Origin: Streptomyces sp. NBC_01335
Lineage (GTDB): Bacteria > Actinomycetota > Actinomycetes > Streptomycetales > Streptomycetaceae
Direction of reading: 5' to 3'
Length of the DNA stretch: 64,000 nucleotides
NCBI RefSeq assembly: GCF_035953295.1
Contig: NZ_CP108370.1
Span: forward strand, 5,423,001 to 5,487,000
Shown here piece after piece: positions 5,194 through 44,715 of this stretch; position 1 is the first letter of the stretch; every line of letters begins with the position of its first letter. The notes under the pieces were generated by a model that was not told where the DNA came from, ran no database searches, and saw nothing but the letters and a program-made list of their open reading frames with translations. The translations under genes were made by a program, and so were the position numbers.

Positions 5194-6033
5194 TCAGCCG
5201 TTCGCGAGGGCCTGGACGCGGTCCAGCGCGCCGTTGAACTTGTCGTGGTCGCCGACCGTCGTACCGGTCGAGGTGTACTGCCAGATCGTGTAGTAGTCCC
5301 AGCCTGCGGGGAGTGCGCCGACCGTGGTGTTGTAGCGGGCCACCCAGAGCGGGTTGGTCGCGCCGAAGCCCGCGTTGCCGCCGGTGCAGGTCGTCCACCA
5401 GCTGGTGGCCGTGTAGATCACCGCGTCCCGTCCGGTGCGCGCCTTGTAGGTGTTCACGAAGTCGCGTATCCAGGAGACCATCGCGGCCGGGGTCTTGCCG
5501 TAGCACTGGTCGCCGTACGGGTTCCACTCGATGTCCAGCACGCCCGGGAGCGTCCGGCCGTCCCGGGACCAGCCGCCGCCGTTGTCCGCGAAGTAGTTCG
5601 CCTGCACGGCGCCGGAGGTCGTGTCCGGGGTGGCGAAGTGGTACGAACCGCGGATCATCCCGACGTTGTACGAGCCCGAGTACTGCTGCGAGAACGAGGT
5701 GTTCTTGTAGTACGTCCCCTCGGTCGCCTTCACGTACGCCCACTTGACGCCGGCGCTCCACAGCGTCGACCAGGCGACGTTGCCCTGGTGCCCGCTGACG
5801 TCGACGCCCTCGGTCTGGGTCGCGGTCGTGCCGACCGGCAGGGGGCCCCGGCCGTCGTGGGCGACGACGCCCATGCCGAGCGAGGCCGTGCCGCGGGCCG
5901 GGACGGCGGCGGCCGAGGCGCCGGCGGCCGAGGCGGCACCGGGCAGGGAGAACAGGAGCGAGAGCGCGGCGAGCAGGGTGCCGGCCGGAGCGAGCAGACG
6001 GGCCGTGCGGGAACGGGATCTGTGCGCGGACAT
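5194..6033 (-). CDS. Secreted GH25 lysozyme-like muramidase
   Basis: A 279-aa secreted 1,4-beta-N-acetylmuramidase that cleaves the peptidoglycan glycan strand. The signal peptide (basic start, hydrophobic LLAALSLLFSL, cleavage near ASA-A at about 37) is followed by a linker and a GH25 TIM barrel from GVDVSGHQG (about 75) to the C-terminus. The catalytic DxE pair is visible in GVLDIEW, and the family residues YVKATEG and GSYHFA are present. Length is standard for the Streptomyces cellosyl type without an extra binding domain. It is divergent from the MarR gene, and a dyad (6113-6132) lies in its promoter region. Confidence 0.93.
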   Translation of the reverse strand: MSAHRSRSRTARLLAPAGTLLAALSLLFSLPGAASAAGASAAAVPARGTASLGMGVVAHDGRGPLPVGTTATQTEGVDVSGHQGNVAWSTLWSAGVKWAYVKATEGTYYKNTSFSQQYSGSYNVGMIRGSYHFATPDTTSGAVQANYFADNGGGWSRDGRTLPGVLDIEWNPYGDQCYGKTPAAMVSWIRDFVNTYKARTGRDAVIYTATSWWTTCTGGNAGFGATNPLWVARYNTTVGALPAGWDYYTIWQYTSTGTTVGDHDKFNGALDRVQALANG

Positions 6034-6112
6034 GGGCGTGCCTCCGTGGTTCGGTGAGGGACGGTGGGGGGAACCGCGAACCGGGGTGCGTGCGGGGCCG
6101 GGCCCCGGTGGT

Positions 6113-6132
6113 CGTGTTCTGTCACGAACATG
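6113..6132. promoter_or_regulatory. Dyad in muramidase/MarR intergenic region
   Basis: The core is TGTTC-N6-GAACA, with flanking bases extending the arms to 6 of 7 matches. Closer to the MarR gene, GGGTCC-T-GGACCC (6174-6186) is a second dyad. Either could be the operator of the adjacent MarR regulator; the assignment is inference. Confidence 0.35.
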
Positions 6133-6268
6133 ACGAGAATGACGCTACGCGCGTTGACCCGTCCTCCGGAAGAGGGTCCTGGACCCGTCTGTGGTCTACT
6201 CCTGCGAAATACTGGCCCAGCTGCGGAAAAGAACCGCGGCGGGCGAAAGTTTCAGAGGTGGAAAGCGT

Positions 6269-6766
6269 ATGAGAGGTGCCGTGGTGGAGGAGAAGGACAG
6301 CGGGACCGGGCCCGACACCGCCGCCGGGGTCCCGGCGGATCGGGCTTTCCTCGCGCTCGAACACGAACTGGCCGTGATCCTGCGGCGGGCGCGCGCCACT
6401 TCCGGCGAGATGGCCCGCGAGGTCCACCCCGAACTGGAGTCCGCCGCCTACGGCTTGCTCGTACGCCTGGAATCCGCCGGGCAGCAGCGGGCCACCGAGC
6501 TCGCGGCCTGGTTCGGGGTCGGCAAAGCCACCATGAGCCGTCAACTGCGCGCCCTGGAGGATCTCGGTCTGGTGAACCGTGAACCGGACCCCGAGGACGG
6601 CCGCGCCTCGCTCGTCCACCTCACCGAGGAGGGGCTCGCCCGGTTCCGCCACGTCCGTGACGCCCGGCGGGCCCGCTACGTCCGCAAGCTCGCCGACTGG
6701 GACCGCGCCGAGGTCGCCGAACTCGCGCGCCTGCTGCACCAGTTCAACGCGCGCGCCGAAGGCTGA
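6269..6766 (+). CDS. MarR family transcriptional regulator
   Basis: A 165-aa winged-helix repressor-type protein. After a variable N-terminus, residues about 25-160 show the MarR fold: dimerisation helix, recognition helix around ATELAAWFGVGKATMSRQLRALEDLGLV, and wing NREPDPEDGRASLVHLTEEG. The ATG at 6269 has GAGGTGG about 8 bp upstream; an in-frame GTG at 6191 would add 26 residues without a better ribosome site. It is divergent from the muramidase gene. No dedicated target enzyme adjoins it, so its ligand is unknown. Confidence 0.9.
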   Translation: MRGAVVEEKDSGTGPDTAAGVPADRAFLALEHELAVILRRARATSGEMAREVHPELESAAYGLLVRLESAGQQRATELAAWFGVGKATMSRQLRALEDLGLVNREPDPEDGRASLVHLTEEGLARFRHVRDARRARYVRKLADWDRAEVAELARLLHQFNARAEG

Positions 6767-6795
6767 CGGTGCCGGGCGGCGCCCCTTCGTCGCGC

Positions 6796-7581
6796 TCAGA
6801 ACTCCACCAGGACCGCCGTGGCGTCGTCGTGCCGCTTGCCCCGGCCCAGGTGGACCCGGTCGGTGTCGGCCCGCTCGCGTTCCCGTACGCGGTCGATGAG
6901 GCGCTGGGGTCCCGCCGAGCGCAGCACCCCCAACGCGTCGCGCCAGTCGCCCTCCTGGAACACCTCGGTCCAGCGGCTCGCCCCGTCCGTCAGGGCGGCC
7001 AGCGCGCGTACCTCCCCGAGCGGCAGCCCGCCGGTCACCGCGCGCGACGCGACGGCGGGATCGGCGGCGGCGGTGAAGAACCCGCCCTCCTTGTTCCGGG
7101 CCAGCGAGTCCGTCAGCTCCATGGACGAGAGCATCCCCGGCGGCAGCCGGTCGAGCCGGTCGTCGATCACCGCGCGTACGCTCCCGTCGAGAAGCTCCAG
7201 CAGCAGGGCCGAATCGGAGAGCACCAGGTACTCGATCGCCGCCTCGTCCCAGCGGACCAGGACGACGGTTGCCTGAGGCGTCCTTACGTGAGAAAGGTCA
7301 CAGGGGGCGCGATGGGCGTCCGCGGTGCGCCCGATGGACTCCGCGAGGACCTCCTCCAGAGTCAGATCCGGGCGTGAAGCGGACAGTTCGGCCAGCGCTC
7401 CGCCCAGCCGCGAGGTGAACCACGGCACCGAGTGCACACAACCGTCATCACCCGGAGGGGGAGTCACCCCGTCCAGCAGGACCAGGCACCCGCCCTGGCC
7501 GGACGCGGGGAGGGCGGCCATGACCCAATCCTCGTTGGGGCGTTCGGGGCTGCCGGGCGTACCGGCGAGTTCGATGCGCAT
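6796..7581 (-). CDS. PP2C-like Ser/Thr phosphatase domain protein
   Basis: A 261-aa cytoplasmic protein resembling the bacterial PP2C/SpoIIE fold. Metal-binding landmarks are recognisable: PERPNEDWV near residue 20 (equivalent to the xED of motif 1), LVLLDGVTP (DG motif), ALTDGASRW (DG) and KRHDDATAVLV (DD). It probably dephosphorylates Ser/Thr or senses phosphorylated partners; the substrate is unknown. The ATG at 7581 lacks an obvious ribosome site, so leaderless translation or the upstream GTG (7608) are alternatives. It is divergent from the conservon. Confidence 0.75.
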   Translation of the reverse strand: MRIELAGTPGSPERPNEDWVMAALPASGQGGCLVLLDGVTPPPGDDGCVHSVPWFTSRLGGALAELSASRPDLTLEEVLAESIGRTADAHRAPCDLSHVRTPQATVVLVRWDEAAIEYLVLSDSALLLELLDGSVRAVIDDRLDRLPPGMLSSMELTDSLARNKEGGFFTAAADPAVASRAVTGGLPLGEVRALAALTDGASRWTEVFQEGDWRDALGVLRSAGPQRLIDRVRERERADTDRVHLGRGKRHDDATAVLVEF

Positions 7582-7934
7582 GGCAGCCAGTCTGCACGAC
7601 GCCTTCACACCGCCTGCACGCCGCGCATGTCACCGTGTACCAGCAGGTCAGGCCGGGCCCCACGGGCGGCGGCGGCGGCACCGGCGGGGTGCGGGCGGGC
7701 ATCCTGCCAAAGCCCGCGCGGAAGGTCCACCCGGCGTCCGACGTATGGGGAGTGGCCGCGCGGGGGAGACTTGTTCGCCCGCTCACGAGTGATGTTCACT
7801 CGTTCGAGTGGCGGAGCGGTCGATGCGCATCCCCCTCCCAAAAGGGCTGGAATGGTCAGAAGCTGGACCAGTTGCAGGGGAGGGCGCGCACGTGACGTTG
7901 CGTCACTTCTGCTTCATGGGCGGACGAGTCAAGA
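7582..7934. other. Intergenic region upstream of the conservon
   Basis: 353 bp without a supported gene. It holds the 19-bp dyad at 7785-7803 and presumably the promoter of cvnA. Confidence 0.6.
7785..7803. promoter_or_regulatory. Perfect 19-bp dyad upstream of cvnA
   Basis: The sequence is ACGAGTGA-TGT-TCACTCGT, followed by another half-site-like TTCGAGTGG. It lies about 130 bp upstream of the histidine kinase gene. It is a strong operator candidate; the cognate regulator cannot be named from sequence. Confidence 0.6.
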
Positions 7935-10900
7935 ATGCGAGCACCGGTGCAGAAGAAGCGGCCGCGGAGCAAGGTCAGCACGCAGGACGTTTCCGGGGCG
8001 ACCGCTCCGGTGGCGGGCGGCGACAAGCGCAAGGTGCGCGTGCGCCGGCGACTCGTCGCGGGCGTCGCCGTCGTCGGGATCACCGTCATAGCGGCGGGTG
8101 CCCCGGCGGCCCTCAGCGCCTCCTCCGACCTCAACGAGTCGCAGAACCTGGTGACGCTGGCCGAGCTCGACCAGCAGGCCATCACGCTCGCCCACTCCCT
8201 CGCCGACGAACGCGACGCGATCACCGCGTACATCGCGGGCGGCCGTAAGACCTACGACGGCAACGGCGACGGCGGCGACGCCAAGCCCGGCGACGACAGC
8301 CTCAGCGCCCGGGTCGACCAGCAGATCGACGAGATCCGCGAGGCCGCCCCCGACACGCTCCGCCGGGACCTCTCCACCGTCCCGTCGCTGCGCCGCGACG
8401 CGGTCAGCGGCAAGGGCTCGGCCCTCGCCGCCCACCAGGCGTACAGCGAGGTCATCGCCAAGCTCCACGACCTCGCCGCCGAACTCGCCGAGACGACCCC
8501 GCCGCGCGCGGCCGCCGCCACCCGCGCGCCGCTCGCCCTCTCCACCGCCGTCGAACAGGCCTCCGCCACCCGGGGACTGCTCCTCGCGGCCCTCGCCGTG
8601 CCCAGCCCGGCACCGGTCCAGGAGTACGACCCCTACACCGGGCTCCCCGTGCAGAGCGACGACGACGAGAAGTCGGCCGACGACCACGCCCGGGACGAGC
8701 TGAGCGCCGCCGCCCAGCAGGCCCGGGTCCGCGAACTCGCCGCCCTCGCCGACTTCGACCAGGCAGCCGGCACCGGCGCCCGCGACAAGCTCTCCTCCAC
8801 CGTCACCGGGCCCGAGGTCAACAGCGCCGAGAAGTACCTCGCCGCCCTGACCGACAGCCCCGAACTCTCCGACTCCGAGCAGAAGACCAGCTCGAAGAAG
8901 CTTTCCGCCGCCCTCTCCGCGCGCATCGACCGGATGCGCGGCGTCGAGTCGGCGCTCGGCACCGCCCAGGTGCAGCGGCTGGAGAAGCTCCGCGACGACG
9001 ACGTCACCGGGCTGGAACTCTCCCTCGCCCTGCTCGGCGGCTGCTTCCTGATCGCGGTCGGCGTCTCCACCGCCGTCGCCCGCACCCTCACCCAGCCGCT
9101 CGCCGTGCTGCGCATCGGCTCCGCCCGGCTGGCCGCCGAACCGGAGACCTCGGAAGCGATCGCCTACCGGGGCCGCAACGACGAGTTCGCCCAGGTGGTC
9201 CGCTCGATCAACGCCCTGCACGCGCGGTTGCTCGCCCTGCACGGCGAGTTCGCCGGGCAGGCCGGCGGTCTGCGGGCCGAGCACGCCGAACTGGTCGCCG
9301 GGCGCGAGGCGCTCACCCTCCAGCGCGCCGAACTCCAGGTCCAGGTCGCCGACCTCACCGCGGAACTCCAGCGGCTGCGCAACACCGTGCACCACACCTT
9401 CGTCAACCTCTCGCTGCGCAGCCTCGGGCTCGTCGAGCGCCAGCTGGGCGTGATCGAGAACCTGGAGGAGCGCGAGCAGGACCCGGAGCGGCTGGCCACC
9501 CTCTTCAAGCTCGACCACCTCGCCACCGTGATGCGCCGCCACGGCGAGAACATGCTGGTCCTCGCGGGCGCCGACCACGGTCAGGGGCACCCCGGACCGA
9601 TCCCGCTGGTCGACGTGGCCCGTGCCGCCGTCAGCGAGATCGAGCGGTACGAACGCGTCACCATCCAGTCCCTGCCGCCGTACGCCCAGATCGCCGGGTT
9701 CGCCGCCGACGACCTGAGCCACCTGGTCGCCGAACTCCTGGAGAACGCGACCGCGTTCTCGCCGCCCGACTCGCGCGTCGAGCTCTCCGGCTGGCTGCTG
9801 GAGACCGGCGAGGTGATGCTCTCCGTGCAGGATGAGGGCATCGGAATGTCGGCGGCGCGGATGGAGGAGGTCAACCTCCGGCTGGCCGACCCGAACTCCT
9901 TCCGGGTCGGGGACCCGTCCGACGACAGCACCGGCCTCGGCCTCCAGGTCTCCTCGCTGCTGGCCGCGCGCCACGGCGTACAGGTGCGGCTGCAGCCGCA
10001 GAAGACCGGCACCGGCGTGGCGGCGGTCGTCGTGCTGCCCCAGGCCCTGCTGCCGAAGGCCCCGCCGGCCGCCTCGCCGCCGCCGGTGAACGTGCCGGGC
10101 GGCGCGCCGGCGCTGAACCTCCCGGGTTCCGTCGCCGAGGCGAACTCCAACACGCTCCAGAGCCGTTCGCTCGTCCTCCCCGCCGACGACCCGCTGATCG
10201 CCGCCGCCGAGCGGACCATCCGGGACGCGGGCCCGCAGGCGGTCCCGGCCGCCGCTCCCGAGGCGCACCAGGCACCGGCCGCCGCTCCCGAGGCACCGGC
10301 CGCCACCGTCCCCGGCGGACCGGCCGCGGAGCCGTCGGCCCCGGTGGAGACCCCGGCCGAGACCACCATGCAGTTCCGGCTCCCGACGGTGCCGGAGGAG
10401 GACGTGCAGCCGGCCCCCGCGGCGGCCCCGGACGCGCCCGGGAACCCGTACGCCATCGGCCCCGACCAGCACGAGCGGTCCGCCGACACGGCGGGTCCGC
10501 ACGCCCCGGCCGCCCACGACCCGTACGAGGCACCGGAGCCCCGGCCGTTCCCGCTCCCCGGGACCGGTCCCGCCCCGTACTCCCAGGCCCCGCAGGCCCC
10601 CCAGGCCCCGCAGATCCCGCAGGCCGAACCGCTTCCCGTGCGGGAGGCCGCTTCCACCGAGTCCGTGCCGGGTCCCCGGCAGCCCGAGCGGGTCACGGAC
10701 AAGGGGCTGCCCAAGCGCACCCCCCGGGTGGTCAAGCCCGCCGACTCACCGTCCGCGGAGCGCACGGGCAGCCTGGACAAGGAAGCGCTCCGGCGCCGGC
10801 TCGGCGGATTCCAGCGGGGAGCGCGGGAAGGCCGCCGGGACGTGGAAGCCGAGATCGCGGAAGGCGTGGAACCCGAGGTTCCTGCCGCGCCGACCGCACG

Positions 10901-38928: not shown

Positions 38929-39040
38929 TGCCGCGACTGGCGTGCGCCTCACGGGGCGTTGCGTGGAAACGACCACGAGGGAGCGGCGCGCTCCGGCCCG
39001 TCCGGAGGACCACCGCCGGAGGGCCGTCCGCCTGGGCATC
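38929..39040 (+). ncRNA. Candidate ZTP (pfl motif) riboswitch upstream of SHMT
   Basis: The leader contains the three most conserved blocks of the pfl/ZTP motif in order: GACTGGCG (38935-38942), GGGAGC (38979-38984) and, after a variable hairpin, CCGCCTGGGCA (39028-39038), the pseudoknot-forming 3' part. pfl RNAs sense ZTP/AICAR and often precede glyA, folD and purH. Downstream, CCGGGTC (39040-39046) can pair with GACCCGG just before the SD GGGAGAG, giving a plausible translational expression platform. Confidence 0.82.
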
Positions 39041-39065
39041 CGGGTCCATGCCGCACGACGCGGCC

Positions 39066-39081
39066 GACCCGGGAGAGTCCC
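39066..39081 (+). promoter_or_regulatory. SD region of SHMT sequestered by hairpin
   Basis: GACCCGGGAGAG includes the ribosome-binding site for the GTG at 39082. Its GACCCGG pairs with CCGGGTC 20 bp upstream, adjacent to the ZTP aptamer, so ligand binding could free or hide the SD. Confidence 0.55.
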
Positions 39082-40419
39082 GTGACCGTACCCGCCCTCG
39101 CATCCGTGACCGACGTATCCGCACCGCCGCACGACGGGGCGCCGACCGCGGCGCCCTCCACCGCCCGTCCGGCGCTCGCCGCCACCGATCCCGTACTCGC
39201 CGGGCTGATCGACGCGGAGGAGCGGCTCCAGGCCGACACCCTGCGGCTGATCCCCAGCGAGAACTACGTCTCGGCCGCCGTGCTGGAAGCGTCCGGCACC
39301 GTCCTCCAGAACAAGTACTCCGAGGGCTACCCCGGCCGCCGCTACTACGAGGGCCAGCAGGTCGTCGACCAGGTCGAGAGGCTGGCCGTCGAGCGCGCCA
39401 AGGCCGTCTTCGGCATGGAGCACGCCAATGTGCAGCCGTACTCGGGCTCCCCGGCCAACCTCGCCGTCTACCTCGCGTTCTGCGCCCCCGGCGACACCGT
39501 CCTCGGCATGGGCCTGCCGATGGGCGGTCACCTCACCCACGGCTGGGGCGTCTCCGCCACCGGCACCTGGTTCCGGGGCGTGGGCTACGGCGTGCGCCGC
39601 GACACCGGGCGGGTCGATCTGGACGAGGTGCGCGACCTGGCCCTCGCCGAGCGCCCCAAGGTGATCTTCTGCGGGGGCACGGCCGTGCCCCGCACCATCG
39701 ACTTCGCGGCCTTCGCCGAGATCGCCCGCGAGACCGGCGCGGTGCTGGTCGCCGACATCGCCCACATCGCGGGGCTGATCGCCGGTGGCGCGCACCCCTC
39801 GCCCGCCCCGTACGCCGACATCGTCTCCACCACCACGCACAAGACGCTGCGCGGGCCGCGCGGCGCGATGCTGCTCAGCACGGCCGAGCACGCCCGCGCC
39901 ATCGACCGGGCGGTGTTCCCGGGGCTCCAGGGCGGTCCGCACAACCACACCACCGCCGCCATCGCGGTCGCGCTCGGGGAAGCCGCGCAGCCGGACTTCG
40001 CCGGATACGCCCACCAGGTGGTCGCCAACGCCCGTCTCCTCGGCGAGGAACTGGCCGGGCGGGGCTTCGACCTCGTCTCCGGCGGCACCGACAACCACCT
40101 GCTGCTGATCGACCTCACCGGCAAGGACGTGCCGGGCAAGGTCGCGGCCAAGGCGCTGGACCGCGCGGGCATCGTGGTGAACCACAACTCCGTGCCGTAC
40201 GACACCCGTAAGCCCTTCGACCCGTCCGGCATCCGCATCGGCACTCCCGCGCTCACCACGCGCGGCGTTCCGGCCTCCGCGATGGCGGACGTGGCGGCCT
40301 GGATCGACACCGTGGTCGACGCGGCACGCACCGGCGACGAGAGCGTGGTCGCCCGGGTCCGCGGCGAGGTCAAGGAGCTGATGGACGCCCACCCGGCACC
40401 GGGCCTGCCGCTCGCCTGA
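39082..40419 (+). CDS. glyA: Serine hydroxymethyltransferase
   Basis: A 445-aa PLP fold-type I enzyme converting serine plus tetrahydrofolate to glycine plus methylene-THF. The PLP lysine is K254 in TTTHKTLRGPRG. Other conserved elements: LIPSENYVSAAVLE, NKYSEGYPGRRYYEG (the active-site tyrosine pair is intact), VQPYSGSPANLAVY and ADIAHIAGLIAGG. A 35-residue Ala/Pro-rich N-terminal extension precedes the core. GTG start. Apparently controlled by the upstream ZTP riboswitch, which fits folate/purine metabolism. Confidence 0.95.
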   Translation: MTVPALASVTDVSAPPHDGAPTAAPSTARPALAATDPVLAGLIDAEERLQADTLRLIPSENYVSAAVLEASGTVLQNKYSEGYPGRRYYEGQQVVDQVERLAVERAKAVFGMEHANVQPYSGSPANLAVYLAFCAPGDTVLGMGLPMGGHLTHGWGVSATGTWFRGVGYGVRRDTGRVDLDEVRDLALAERPKVIFCGGTAVPRTIDFAAFAEIARETGAVLVADIAHIAGLIAGGAHPSPAPYADIVSTTTHKTLRGPRGAMLLSTAEHARAIDRAVFPGLQGGPHNHTTAAIAVALGEAAQPDFAGYAHQVVANARLLGEELAGRGFDLVSGGTDNHLLLIDLTGKDVPGKVAAKALDRAGIVVNHNSVPYDTRKPFDPSGIRIGTPALTTRGVPASAMADVAAWIDTVVDAARTGDESVVARVRGEVKELMDAHPAPGLPLA

Positions 40420-40577: not shown

Positions 40578-41876
40578 ATGCACACCAAACCCCCCGCCGA
40601 CACTTCTCCCTCCCAGCACGCCCCCGGCACCGCCGCGCGCTGCCCGTTCCGGCTCGACCCCTCCGGTAGGGACATCCAGGGCGAGGCCGCCCGTATCCGC
40701 GCGGGCGGATCGGCCACCCGGATCGAACTGCCGGAAGGCGTCCCCGCCTGGGCCGTCGCCGACCCTGCCGTCATCACCCGGCTGCTCACCTCCCCGGACG
40801 TCTCCAAGGACGCCGCCCAGCACTGGCCCGCCTGGATCGACGGCGAGGTCGGGCCCGACTGGTCGATGGCCCTGTGGGTCTCCATACGCAGCATGTTCAC
40901 GGCGTACGGCCCCGCCCACACCCGCCTGCGGAAGCTCGTCTCCGGCGCCTTCACCGCCCACCGCACCAAGGCCCTGGCCCCCGTCGTCACCCGCATCGCG
41001 GAGGAACTGCTCGACGAGATCGAGGCGTTGCCCGCGGGCGAACCGGTGGACCTGCGCGCCCGGTACGCCGGACCGCTGCCCGCCCGCGTCATCTGCGAGC
41101 TGTTCGGCGTACCGCTGGCCAGCCGCGACCGGCTCTGCACCCTGTTCGACGCCCTGTTCAGCACCGCCACCCCGGCCGAGGAAGTGCGCCTCCACGCCGG
41201 GGAGCTGTACGGCATCCTCCACGGACTCGTCGCCCTCAAGCGGGAGACCCCCGGCGACGACCTCACCAGCGCGCTGGTCGCCATCCAGCGCGACGGACTC
41301 GCCTCCGGTGAGTCGAACCCCCTGGAGGACCAGGAGCTGCTCGACACCCTCGTCCACTTCCTGTCCGCCGGGTACGAGACCACCATCAACCTGATCGACC
41401 ACGCCACGCACGCCCTGCTCACCCACCCCGACCAGCTCGAACTGATCCGCACCGGCAAGGCCGAGTGGTCCGACGCGATCGAGGAGACCCTGCGCTGGGA
41501 ACCGGCCGCGGCCAACCTCATGCTCCGGTACGCCGTCGAGGACCTCGACCTCGGCGACGTGGTCGTCCCCAAGGGCGACGCCCTCGTCATGGCCGTCGCC
41601 GGCGCGGGCCGCGACGAGGGCCTGCACGGACCGGACGCGGACCGGTTCGACCTCACCCGGGCGACCCGCCGCGACCATCTCGCCTTCGGACACGGCGTCC
41701 ACCACTGCCTCGGGGCGCCCCTCGCCCGGATGGAGGGGGTCACCGCCCTCTCCGCGCTCTTCGCCCGGTTCCCCGGACTGACGCTCGCCGTCCCGTCGTC
41801 CTCGCTGCGCCCGGTGAAGTCCTTCATCTCCAACGGCCACCAGGAACTCCCCGTCCTGCGACACGGGCGCGCCTGA
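40578..41876 (+). CDS. Cytochrome P450
   Basis: A 432-aa class I-type soluble P450. Heme-ligand motif FGHGVHHCLGAPLAR with Cys377, K-helix ExxR (EETLRW), and I-helix AGYETT (O2-activating Thr) are all present. It needs ferredoxin/reductase from elsewhere. It lies just before the AfsA-type gene (convergent, 223 bp between). In other Streptomyces, P450s tailor butenolide signals (SrrO for SRB, Cyp17 for avenolide), so a role in signal oxidation is plausible but inferred from context only. ATG with AGGAAAGAG upstream. Confidence 0.95.
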   Translation: MHTKPPADTSPSQHAPGTAARCPFRLDPSGRDIQGEAARIRAGGSATRIELPEGVPAWAVADPAVITRLLTSPDVSKDAAQHWPAWIDGEVGPDWSMALWVSIRSMFTAYGPAHTRLRKLVSGAFTAHRTKALAPVVTRIAEELLDEIEALPAGEPVDLRARYAGPLPARVICELFGVPLASRDRLCTLFDALFSTATPAEEVRLHAGELYGILHGLVALKRETPGDDLTSALVAIQRDGLASGESNPLEDQELLDTLVHFLSAGYETTINLIDHATHALLTHPDQLELIRTGKAEWSDAIEETLRWEPAAANLMLRYAVEDLDLGDVVVPKGDALVMAVAGAGRDEGLHGPDADRFDLTRATRRDHLAFGHGVHHCLGAPLARMEGVTALSALFARFPGLTLAVPSSSLRPVKSFISNGHQELPVLRHGRA

Positions 41877-42099
41877 CCACGCGCGCCTGACCACGCGCGG
41901 CGGACCGGCGGGCGCCGCCCGCCCGACGGGAGTGGCCGGAGAGGGCCCGGGCCTCTCGTCCGGATCGGGCCGGGCTCGCCGACCAGCCTGATCCGACGGA
42001 AGACCCTGGGCCCGACCGGCCCCGGAAGCCGGTGGCGTACGGGCCGCGGGATCCCCCCCCGTCCCCGTCCGCCACCGGCCCCGGAGCCTCACCCGACCG

Positions 42100-43170
42100 T
42101 CACTCCGGTACGGCGACGGGCGCTGCCAGCCCTTCCACCAGGCTGCGGAACGCCACCTTCCCGTGCTGCGTCCCGGTCACCTCCACCGCGATCCTCTCCA
42201 CAGCACGGCCCGAGCCCGCAGCACGGCCCGAGCCCGGAGCACGGCCCGAGCGGGCAGCGCTGCCCGCGCCGGGAGCGCTGCCCAAGGGCGCGTCGGGCAG
42301 TGGAACTTCACGGGCGTCGACCCAGCACGGCGCGTCGAACTCCACGTACCGGGACGTACGCATGTCGGTGGTGAGCGGGCACCACGACCGGGCTCCCGCA
42401 CCCGCGACGACGGCGTGCGCGGCCTGCTGGCTCGCCTCCATGATCACGAGCCCCGGCACATGGTCGACCGGGTGGTCCATCAGCGCCGGATTGCCGGTGT
42501 CGGCGATCAACTCCCAGCGGCGCGGGCGGTCCGAGGCGCCGAGCACCACCTCGTCCGCCGCCCGCCGCCCGGCCGCCGCCGCCCCGACCGGCGCCGGCAT
42601 GGCCCCGGGCCGCGCGGTCAGGTGCGAGCCGCGCAGCCGCCGGTAGACCCGGTCGGACACCCAGGAGAACCCGGACTCGCTCCTGACGAAGACCGTCCCG
42701 TGCTGCTCCAGGGTGATGGCTATGCGGATACCGTTGCGCCCCGTCCAGGTGCAGACCGCCTCCGCGCGGACCGGTGACAGGTCCGTCGGCAGGAGCGGAT
42801 CGGTGGAGTAGGACATCCCGCCCATCAGGAACTGGTGCGCGGAGCTGATCTTGAACTCTGTGTGTGCGAGGCTGAGTCCGATCTGTCTCAGTGTCTGCGC
42901 GATCAGCATGTGGTGGTGCACACTGCCGAGTGCGGGTTCGAAGAAGACGTGCCGGCCGGCCCAGTCGATGTCGAGTGCGTAACTGTTCTCGGCGATCCGG
43001 TGGTAGTCGCGGATCAGTACGTCGTCCGGCTGGACGCGATGGGCGTCCGCCGGGCGGACCGCGGGCGTGGTGTCCGGTACGCCCCCTGCGGGCGCCGGGA
43101 CCGAGGCGGTGCGGTCCGTCCTGAACTCGGGGACGGACGGGGTGTGGTGGTGCTTCACGGTGTGGTGCAT
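42100..43170 (-). CDS. AfsA-type gamma-butyrolactone/butenolide synthase
   Basis: A 356-aa protein with two A-factor-biosynthesis hotdog domains (about 50-170, from VLIRDYHRIAENSYALDIDW to GGMSYSTDPLL, and about 215-350, with HVPGLVIMEASQQAAHAV). AfsA condenses DHAP with beta-ketoacyl-ACP in A-factor synthesis. The second domain contains a Gly/Ala/Ser/Arg-rich insertion (GSAARSGRAPGSGRAAGSG) encoded by an 18-bp repeat, absent from AfsA homologues I know. ATG with GGGGGAG upstream. Divergent from its receptor gene across an ARE-containing region. Confidence 0.92.
   Translation of the reverse strand: MHHTVKHHHTPSVPEFRTDRTASVPAPAGGVPDTTPAVRPADAHRVQPDDVLIRDYHRIAENSYALDIDWAGRHVFFEPALGSVHHHMLIAQTLRQIGLSLAHTEFKISSAHQFLMGGMSYSTDPLLPTDLSPVRAEAVCTWTGRNGIRIAITLEQHGTVFVRSESGFSWVSDRVYRRLRGSHLTARPGAMPAPVGAAAAGRRAADEVVLGASDRPRRWELIADTGNPALMDHPVDHVPGLVIMEASQQAAHAVVAGAGARSWCPLTTDMRTSRYVEFDAPCWVDAREVPLPDAPLGSAPGAGSAARSGRAPGSGRAAGSGRAVERIAVEVTGTQHGKVAFRSLVEGLAAPVAVPE
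42201..42254. repeat. 18-bp triplicated repeat inside the afsA-like gene
   Basis: CAGCACGGCCCGAGCCCG is present twice exactly and a third time with three changes. It keeps the reading frame and inserts a flexible GSGRA-type loop in the second hotdog domain. Confidence 0.85.
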
Positions 43171-43218
43171 GTGCTCCCCCCAGGGATGAATGCGCACGTG
43201 ATCAGTGGTGTTCGAGCG

Positions 43219-43244
43219 CGAAAACGGAGCAGTTCGGTCCGTCC
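43219..43244. promoter_or_regulatory. Possible second ARE near the afsA-like start
   Basis: The segment shares 15 of 26 positions with the ARE at 43345, including AACGGA-CAG and GGT. It lies 49 bp upstream of the afsA-like ATG. Weaker than the first site; it may be a lower-affinity receptor site. Confidence 0.35.
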
Positions 43245-43344
43245 TCAAAGAGGCGGATCGCACGGGCCGTTGAGGGCGGGGAGCGCGCCCGGGCACACGG
43301 CCGCCGGTGCCGCCTCAACTGGAGGCCGCCGGGAACGGTGCCAT

Positions 43345-43370
43345 AGAATACGGACCAGCCGGTTTCTTGA
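43345..43370. promoter_or_regulatory. Autoregulatory element (ARE) of the butyrolactone receptor
   Basis: The 26-bp segment begins AGAATACGGACC and ends CCGGTTTCTTGA. As I recall published AREs of BarA/FarA-type receptors (AGATACATACC-N-ACCGGTTC), it aligns over the full length. It lies 56 bp upstream of the receptor ATG, in the divergent region, so the receptor probably represses itself through it. Confidence 0.75.
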
Positions 43371-43425
43371 GGGGAACGTGCCGGAGACACTGAGCCCCGT
43401 CAGGCGCATCGTCAGGAGATCTCGA

Positions 43426-44133
43426 ATGGCACGGCAGGAGCGCGCGATCAGGACGCGCAACGCAGTACTGACAGCCGCCGCAGCGGTCTTCGCCGAGCGC
43501 GGCTACGAGGCCGCGACGATCCAGGAGATTCTGGAGCGGGCCGCGGTGACCAAGGGCGCGCTGTACTTCCACTTCCCCTCCAAGGAGGACCTGGCGCGAG
43601 GCGTTCTGGATCATGCGGTGACCGAGCCGCCCCCCGAACAACCTCTGAAGATGCAGTCGTTCGTCGACATGGGGCTGATCCTCGCGCACCGGCTGCCGAG
43701 AGAGCCACTGTTGCGGGGTGCCGCGCGCATTGCAGCCGATCAGAGCAACCAGCGCTTCTTCGGCAAGCCGTGGCACGACTGGGTGCAGTTGACCAGCCAG
43801 CAGATCACCGCAGCTCAGGGGCAGGGTGAGGTACTTCCGCACGTCGATCCCGAGCGGACCGCCCAGACGATGGTCGGCTCCTTCACCGGCATCCAGCTGA
43901 TGTCGCAGGCGGCCACCGAGATGGCCGATTTCGAGGAGCGCATCTCTCTTCTGTACGACCTGGTGCTGCCCAGCATCGCGGTGCCCGGCGTCCTCGGACG
44001 GCTGGACACCTCGCCCGAGCGCGGCGCCCGCGCCTTCGCGGAGGCCCGCGCGTCGGCCGAGGGCCACGACCCCGCGGATTCCGGACAGCCGGACGCCTTC
44101 GACGCGAGCCGGCCGGTGGCCCGGACGGCCTGA
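43426..44133 (+). CDS. TetR-type gamma-butyrolactone receptor (ArpA/ScbR family)
   Basis: A 235-aa TetR-family receptor. The DNA-binding part MARQERAIRTRNAVLTAAAAVFAERGYEAATIQEILERAAVTKGALYFHFPSKEDLA matches ArpA-like receptors. Ligand-domain landmarks include RGAARIAADQSNQRFFGKPWHDW, with the conserved Trp expected in the ligand pocket (ArpA Trp119 region). ATG with AGGAGA upstream. Codon use is less GC3-biased than neighbours, hinting at horizontal acquisition. Divergent from afsA-like gene, as in scbA/scbR and afsA homologues elsewhere. Confidence 0.95.
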   Translation: MARQERAIRTRNAVLTAAAAVFAERGYEAATIQEILERAAVTKGALYFHFPSKEDLARGVLDHAVTEPPPEQPLKMQSFVDMGLILAHRLPREPLLRGAARIAADQSNQRFFGKPWHDWVQLTSQQITAAQGQGEVLPHVDPERTAQTMVGSFTGIQLMSQAATEMADFEERISLLYDLVLPSIAVPGVLGRLDTSPERGARAFAEARASAEGHDPADSGQPDAFDASRPVARTA

Positions 44134-44246: not shown

Positions 44247-44507
44247 ATGACCGACCGCAGGCCAGAAGGACCCGCGTACACCGGCGCCTCGGGAAGCCCG
44301 CCGCCCGTCCCCGCCGACATGCCCGACCAGCAGGTGCAGGAGGGCGAGGACGCCCTTGACGTCCCCCCGCCGCCGTGGGCGGACCAGTACCGGGACGACG
44401 CCGGCGCCGACGGGGCCGACCCCGACGAGGCCGGTGCGGGTGCCCGTGCCGCCCGCAACGCGGGCGTCCACCCGGACCAGCCGACCCCGGACGAGTCGAC
44501 GGGCTGA
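44247..44507 (+). CDS. Small acidic hypothetical protein
   Basis: An 86-aa protein, acidic and disordered-looking, rich in Pro, Asp and Ala (MTDRRPEGPAYTGASGSPPP, EDALDVPPPPWADQYRDD). ATG with ACGGAGA upstream. A similar small acidic protein is conserved upstream of this tRNA in streptomycetes as far as I recall. No function can be assigned. Confidence 0.65.
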   Translation: MTDRRPEGPAYTGASGSPPPVPADMPDQQVQEGEDALDVPPPPWADQYRDDAGADGADPDEAGAGARAARNAGVHPDQPTPDESTG

Positions 44508-44632: not shown

Positions 44633-44643
44633 CTGTCCGGAAG

Positions 44644-44715
44644 TGCCCCCGGCAGGATTCGAACCTGCGCACCCGGCTCCGGAGGCCGATGCTCTATCCC
44701 CTGAGCTACGGGGGC
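44644..44715 (-). tRNA. tRNA-Arg (anticodon CCG)
   Basis: The cloverleaf is complete on the minus strand: acceptor GCCCCCG/CGGGGGC, D arm GCTCAGGGGATAGAGC, anticodon stem TCGGC/GCCGG with loop CTCCGGA (anticodon CCG, reading CGG), T arm GCAGGTTCGAATCCTGC. The 3' CCA is not encoded, as usual in Streptomyces. No integrase is next to it. Confidence 0.97.

Follow-up and report, generated by a model that had tools for sequence, protein, structure and literature searches.

AfsA-Type Hormone Systems with an Associated P450

The hormones of Streptomyces turn on antibiotic clusters, and their structure is known for some of them only. In S. rochei, the genes for the AfsA-type synthase and for a cytochrome P450 are adjacent, the receptor gene lies nearby, and the P450, SrrO, introduces a C-6′ ketone (PMC7564063, PMC12301235; these and the other papers are cited from extracts of their text); further putative biosynthetic genes are also described around srrX. 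SfbA/Sfb4/SfbR of S. filipinensis is a published trio of AfsA, P450 and receptor (PMC7480387), and SnbU of S. pristinaespiralis is reported to be involved in making the receptor ligand (PMC7554373). The synthase sequence is noted to be a poor guide to the type of signal (PMC12301235). The locus considered here, in which the same three kinds of gene lie side by side, belongs to Streptomyces sp. NBC_01335 (genome of 8.36 Mb, G000) and was analysed in a stretch of 64,000 nt, the window (NZ_CP108370.1, 5,423,001-5,487,000); the fetched loci are numbered L and the genus genomes, 392 of which were searched for the P450, are numbered G.

An initial annotation of the window had proposed a P450, an AfsA-type synthase and a divergent ArpA/ScbR-type receptor next to each other, and all three were confirmed at that place, together with an autoregulator element (ARE):

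40578..41876, + strand: cytochrome P450 of the CYP154 family, afsA-linked lineage (motifs, best solved match, tree, dN/dS)
42100..43170, - strand: AfsA/ScbA-type butyrolactone/butenolide synthase with two hotdog domains (NF041195, PF03756, fixed columns, model)
43348..43365, strand not given: ARE (consensus match, promoter alignment, genome pattern scan)
43426..44133, + strand: ScbR/ArpA-type autoregulator receptor of the TetR family (NF041196, AvaR1 match, clade, pocket residues)

Since SrrX/SrrO/SrrA and SfbA/Sfb4/SfbR are already in print, the trio is of a known kind, and its sequences indicate a small gene group that probably serves to produce a hormone-like signal, to oxidise it and to detect it. 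On balance, a divided AfsA-type hormone system is the better reading, in which the trio is likely the half responsible for synthesis and sensing and the reducing enzymes would be encoded elsewhere, at a second locus. A literature search of limited coverage brought up no publication on this locus or on a version of it divided over two loci.

The Trio and Its Promoter

The P450 (432 aa) has intact motifs, i.e., ExxR (ETLR at 303), AGYETT (264) and the heme motif FGHGVHHCLG (370), and its best solved match is CYP154A1 (408.6 bits). At E ≤ 1e-140 it was matched in 24 of the 392 genus genomes, its own included, at 25 places: 11 beside afsA (again including its own), 10 beside a second P450, three beside none of these and one, in G332, on a short contig next to a receptor-type gene, the afsA of G332 being on another contig. 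The rows of the P450 tree (55) were fetched through AfsA, P450 or AvaR1 hits and thus are not a random sample; in this tree the window P450 belongs to a 21-row lineage (support 89/89), 18 rows of which lie beside afsA, and within it to an inner set of five rows (100/100). The P450s from AvaR1-like loci, nearly all of which have an acyl-CoA oxidase, form a separate clade of 15 rows (99/100), and the paired P450s form another one of 11 rows (92/99). Neither SrrO nor Cyp17 is itself a row of this tree; Cyp17 is represented there by the Aco-linked clade, given that the receptors encoded at the loci of that clade are 69-88% identical to AvaR1. A catabolic P450, or one of the paired CYP154 enzymes, which we take to be of the “conservon” type, was considered and rejected: the window P450 falls in the afsA-linked lineage and the paired ones elsewhere, and no match to a second P450, the marker of that setting, was found near it. 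The grouping with unrelated catabolic P450s, which the initial annotation had envisaged, was therefore not the outcome.

P450-linked AfsAs occur in at least two well-separated places of the AfsA tree (three in the drawn tree, the remainder being poorly resolved), and their P450s form one moderately supported lineage. The simplest reading suggested by this scatter of the synthases against a single P450 lineage is that AfsA-receptor pairs have acquired or lost this type of P450 on more than one occasion; such gain or loss would be a route by which signals may diversify.

The synthase (356 aa from the ATG at 43170) scores 244 bits with NCBIfam NF041195 (ScbA_BarX; cut-off 200), Pfam PF03756 (AfsA) matches it in two stretches, and its AlphaFold model (mean predicted local distance difference test score, pLDDT, 84.7) has double-hotdog acyl thioesterases as structural matches. 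In the 59-row AfsA tree, from which the ScbA and AfsA reference proteins themselves are absent, the window, L059, L060, L061, L162, L165, L166, L167 and ten protein-database homologues form a clade (100/99); its sister consists of 12 AfsA rows (100/99 together) without a P450 in the fetched stretches. All seven columns that are fixed in 75/75 other synthase rows are kept in the window protein, 14 of the 63 columns with more than 75% agreement differ, and the 18 homologues compared with it (44-89% identity) are all predicted full proteins. Residue 272 (window 42355-42357) is F or Y in 75/75 other rows and A, T or P in 26/26 clade rows, some proteins having been fetched, and counted, twice. The glutamine found in place of glutamate at position 92 was considered as the mark of a dead synthase and rejected, since 20 of the 75 other rows share it.

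Inside afsA, near the C-terminus, a low-complexity near-repeat (SGRAPGSGRAAGSGRAV) spans window 42200-42290, where the model is weak; this insert varies in length, and the nine closest homologues range from 321 to 356 aa overall. The genome also contains two more AfsA-receptor pairs, at C1:4714250-4716117 (L182) and 357333-359039 (L183), with 31-32% (AfsA) and 29-39% (receptor) identity to those of the window and with no P450 match in the fetched stretches.

The receptor (235 aa from the ATG at 43426) scores 211 bits with NCBIfam NF041196 (ScbR; cut-off 150), and its best solved match is AvaR1 (195 bits). In the 49-row receptor tree it lies in a clade of nine (97/95), comprising the window, L059, L060, L061, L162, L165, L166, L167 and L247, a second receptor of G000; AfsA and receptor share a joint ancestry, as both clades hold the same eight loci. 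Ten receptors matching the P450-less AfsA sister rows also adjoin this clade, and the P450-linked receptor L168 stands at the same unresolved fork beside it; the AvaR1-like receptors form a clade of their own (100/100), to which the window receptor does not belong. Gln64, Thr108 and Trp127 are described as conserved among 90 putative butenolide receptors (PMC7347384); the window receptor has Ala, Ala and Trp at these positions, and Ala64/Ala108 are found in 9/9 receptors of its clade. Gln64/Thr108 are present in all 15 readable AvaR1-like receptors (L222 being unreadable), and Gln64 in all 13 other P450/AfsA-linked receptors of the tree. Ala64 is not peculiar in itself, because it is common in AfsA-linked receptors without a P450.

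The ARE, an 18-mer (ATACGGACCAGCCGGTTT), is located at 43348-43365, upstream of both genes, at a distance of 60 bp from the start codon of the receptor gene and 177 bp from that of afsA. With respect to the published consensuses (PMC7480387, PMC5744401), it has one mismatch to the 18-nt element of SfbR/SfbR2 and, on the minus strand, none to that of AvaR1/AvaR2. The block is conserved in 7/7 aligned promoters (the window and six related loci), six of which fit strictly and one, L061, with one mismatch; a second copy is complete in L061 and L165 and has one mismatch in L060, while the window and L059 have a single ARE. The strict pattern AWACNGNNNNNNCNGTWT occurs at three places of the genome against two for the reversed control, so that the count alone is near chance; these places are the window promoter, the region before a paralogous receptor at 112 kb and a site between two open reading frames (ORFs) at 4.75 Mb, and two of the three are followed, 60-90 bp downstream, by a receptor gene, both genes belonging to one clade. 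A looser pattern (64 sites, control 9) was left unused, the listed sites being mostly unlike known AREs at the outer bases. With family scores above the curated cut-offs and an ARE in the shared promoter, the AfsA/receptor/ARE signalling module of the initial annotation was borne out.

A Second Locus with Candidate Reducing Enzymes

About 5.35 Mb from the trio, a second locus (C1:111371-114078, L247) contains a short-chain dehydrogenase/reductase (SDR) gene on the minus strand, followed on the plus strand by the paralogous receptor (112439) and a zinc/quinone-type oxidoreductase, hereafter the reductase. The paralogous receptor is 57% identical to that of the window, and an ARE lies between it and the SDR gene. 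An NB-ARC/TPR regulator, 74% identical in L290, comes after this locus.

Six related clusters, L060, L061, L162, L165, L166 and L167, have the SDR and/or the reductase inside: SDR homologues (57-60%) are found in L060, L165, L166 and L167, and reductase homologues (59-65%) in L061, L162, L166 and L167. The description of the trio as self-contained therefore fails, since the enzymes that sit inside the related clusters lie here at a distant locus, beside a paralogous receptor. The same two-locus layout is present in the genome of L059, the nearest relative found, whose second locus (L290) is 81% identical for the SDR, 75% for the receptor, 79% for the reductase and 74% for the next gene, with the ARE ATACCGCCGCGCCCGTTT between. 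Reductase matches at E ≤ 1e-60 were obtained in five of the nine genomes searched, one in each, all about 3 kb or less from a clade receptor, and none was found at this threshold in G019 and G005, genomes without the trio at this site. The best SDR match is beside a receptor in six of the seven searched clade-bearing genomes, the receptor in G370 being part of another AfsA-receptor pair; an SDR match by itself is no diagnostic sign, because G019 and G005 (38% in the latter) also have matches without the trio at this site.

All genes of the module and of the second locus are under purifying selection, and the synthase changes fastest. Between the window genome and L059, the ratio of nonsynonymous to synonymous substitution rates (dN/dS) is 0.26 for the P450, 0.42 for AfsA and 0.15 for the receptor, and 0.25, 0.36 and 0.23 for the SDR, second receptor and reductase, respectively, with 0.20 for glyA; dN is 0.33 for AfsA, 0.13 for the P450 and 0.11 for the receptor. 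Identity to L059 is 57% for AfsA, 80% for the P450 and 88%, over 212 residues, for the receptor.

Insertion Site and Codon Use

The trio, with the receptor divergent from afsA, is placed between two further features:

38959..40419, + strand: glyA (presumably serine hydroxymethyltransferase), bordering the island on its left
44643..44715, - strand: tRNA-Arg (CCG), bordering the island (integration-site-like in some other genomes)

Beyond the tRNA, the right flank presumably consists of a response regulator, an argS-like gene, lysA and hom; between receptor and tRNA, a small acidic ORF of 86 codons from its ATG is found at 44247-44507. A lysA match was obtained in 22 genus genomes, and the lysA neighbourhood was taken from 18 of them; 17 were readable, and the trio was missing at this site in all 17. 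Only one of them, L144, has glyA in this neighbourhood, on the same side of the tRNA as in the window, and its glyA-to-tRNA gap (5725-8993) is filled by other ORFs instead of the trio; thus, the gap looks variable. In L059 the trio is at the same site, with glyA adjoining and an extra FAD (flavin adenine dinucleotide) oxidoreductase, so the insertion is common to at least one relative; near the trios of L060 and L162, no matches to glyA, argS or lysA were found. The module is therefore not common to all close relatives at this locus, which the initial annotation had left as an alternative, and its proposal of an acquired system is supported for this site by sequence comparison.

In other Streptomyces, the tRNA-Arg (CCG) looks like an integration site, as a 47-53 bp piece of it is duplicated upstream in L148 (1691-1739), L149 (5785-5831) and L155 (2757-2809). 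Only one copy of the tRNA-Arg end was found in the window, so no intact element is visible and a complete integrative element in the window was rejected. The codon use of the receptor gene, said to be less biased, is only modestly so: the GC content at third codon positions is 0.864 for the receptor, 0.891 for afsA, 0.938 for the P450, 0.950 for glyA and 0.955 for lysA, the P450 value being close to that of the flanking genes. This is weak evidence of acquisition by itself and adds little to the case made by the insertion site.

Proposed Pathway and Alternative Explanations

In the proposed pathway, a butenolide precursor would be formed by AfsA through condensation of a C3 unit of the glycerol type with a beta-keto acyl thioester, and the P450 would oxidise the alkyl tail of this precursor. 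Enoyl and/or keto reduction would probably be carried out by the reductase and the SDR about 5.35 Mb away; were the reductase to act on the butenolide, a saturated butyrolactone would result in place of a butenolide. A receptor dimer on the ARE between the receptor gene and afsA would repress one or both of them and would be released upon hormone binding; since the distant enzymes flank a paralogous receptor with its own ARE, the hormone would coordinate the two loci. Being small and having a predicted operator and a pair of receptors, the locus offers a system open to testing, and, if the two-locus reading is true, surveys limited to the neighbourhood of afsA or of the receptor would miss part of such pathways. 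A further step is taken tentatively: the two loci with matching AREs, present in two genomes, might yield an oxidised lactone outside the known γ-butyrolactone (GBL), S. rochei butenolide (SRB) and avenolide classes, synthase (residue 272) and receptor (Ala64/Ala108) having changed together.

Several findings weigh against a pathway split in this way. The reductase is also found beside AfsA-receptor pairs outside the clade (L068 and L069, 64-65%), and no match at E ≤ 1e-60 was obtained in two of the seven clade-bearing genomes, G332 and G409; in G410 the best SDR match is away from any receptor, and next to the SDR match (56%) of G019, which lacks the module at this site, no receptor was found. 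The trio itself showed neither a phosphatase nor a dehydrogenase. The third strict ARE match (C1:4747565), with which the pattern count is one above control, precedes a core gene, presumably of the TatD type, and may be due to chance. The second receptor is sister to the receptor of L162 and not to that of the window (98/95), and thus may derive from another module. This last point would suit a trio that alone makes and senses a butenolide of the SRB type, the type with a 2-alkyl-3-methyl-4-hydroxybutenolide product, as SrrX/SrrO/SrrA do, the 112 kb locus being a separate system or a remnant; the gene layout and the SrrO-dependent C-6′ ketone of S. rochei (PMC7564063, PMC12301235) point in the same direction, as does the genome of L060, which has the trio and the SDR with no reductase match. 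Such an explanation is nevertheless considered rather unlikely, because the SDR and/or the reductase sit within six clusters of the clade, the two-locus layout is kept in the genome of L059, and S. rochei itself is described with more putative biosynthetic genes around srrX.

It is improbable that the P450 stands outside the hormone pathway, as a detoxification or secondary-metabolite enzyme that came by chance beside afsA and the receptor gene. It does have its own 158-bp upstream region, in which no ARE was found, a further point against the proposed pathway, and L166 and L167 have the AfsA-receptor pair, their genomes (G030 and G157) not belonging to the 24 in which the P450 was matched at E ≤ 1e-140. 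However, its lineage is mostly afsA-linked, the trio is kept together in L059, L060 and L162, the last two at other sites, and the published P450s encoded near a receptor or synthase modify the ligand or are required for it (SrrO, SnbU); sfb4, the published counterpart, is likewise described without an ARE in its promoter (PMC7480387). A locus in decay, with AfsA diverging fast and perhaps losing function, is held to be very improbable: the low identity and high dN of AfsA with respect to L059, the 14 deviating columns and the variable insert near the C-terminus would agree with it, but its dN/dS of 0.42 is well below 1, the seven fixed columns are kept and the homologues are predicted as full proteins. 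The least credible alternative, to which hardly any likelihood is given, is an avenolide-type butenolide system. AvaR1 is the best solved match of the receptor and the P450 is close to the receptor gene; however, AfsA stands in place of an acyl-CoA oxidase, for which no match above 150 bits was found within 6 kb of the P450 with an Aco-type protein from L216 as the query, the P450 and the receptor fall outside the Aco-linked and AvaR1-like clades, and the receptor has Ala at 64 and 108. An avenolide-type system was therefore rejected on synthase type, on both clades and on residues 64 and 108, and the analogy with Aco/Cyp17/AvaR1 drawn in the initial annotation proved weak.

Comparison with Known Systems

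Aco/Cyp17/AvaR1 of S. avermitilis, TylP/Orf16* and SpbR/SnbU resemble the window in having a P450 close to an ArpA-type receptor. Unlike the window, which has AfsA, the avenolide-type systems use an acyl-CoA oxidase as the synthase (S. avermitilis, S. fradiae), and their P450s and receptors belong to other clades, with the Gln64 and Thr108 that the window receptor does not have. The ScbA/ScbR and AfsA/ArpA pairs, which are without a P450, share with the window an AfsA gene divergent to the receptor gene and an ARE; the window adds the P450, and its synthase has no aromatic residue at 272.

The closest counterparts are the two published trios. SfbA/Sfb4/SfbR is part of a larger cluster with SARP-type (Streptomyces antibiotic regulatory protein) regulators, a pseudo-receptor and sfb5, a short-chain dehydrogenase/reductase, none of which was seen beside the window trio; as far as the extracts of that work go, it is like the window in its AfsA, P450 and receptor, in its 18-nt AREs and in the P450 promoter without an ARE. 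SrrX/SrrO/SrrA, which can be set beside the window by description only, is accompanied by srrG, srrP and srrH on a linear plasmid, unlike the bare trio on the main contig of NBC_01335; both, according to the sources cited, combine an AfsA-type synthase with an adjacent P450 and an ArpA-type receptor, SrrO being the enzyme that oxygenates the tail.

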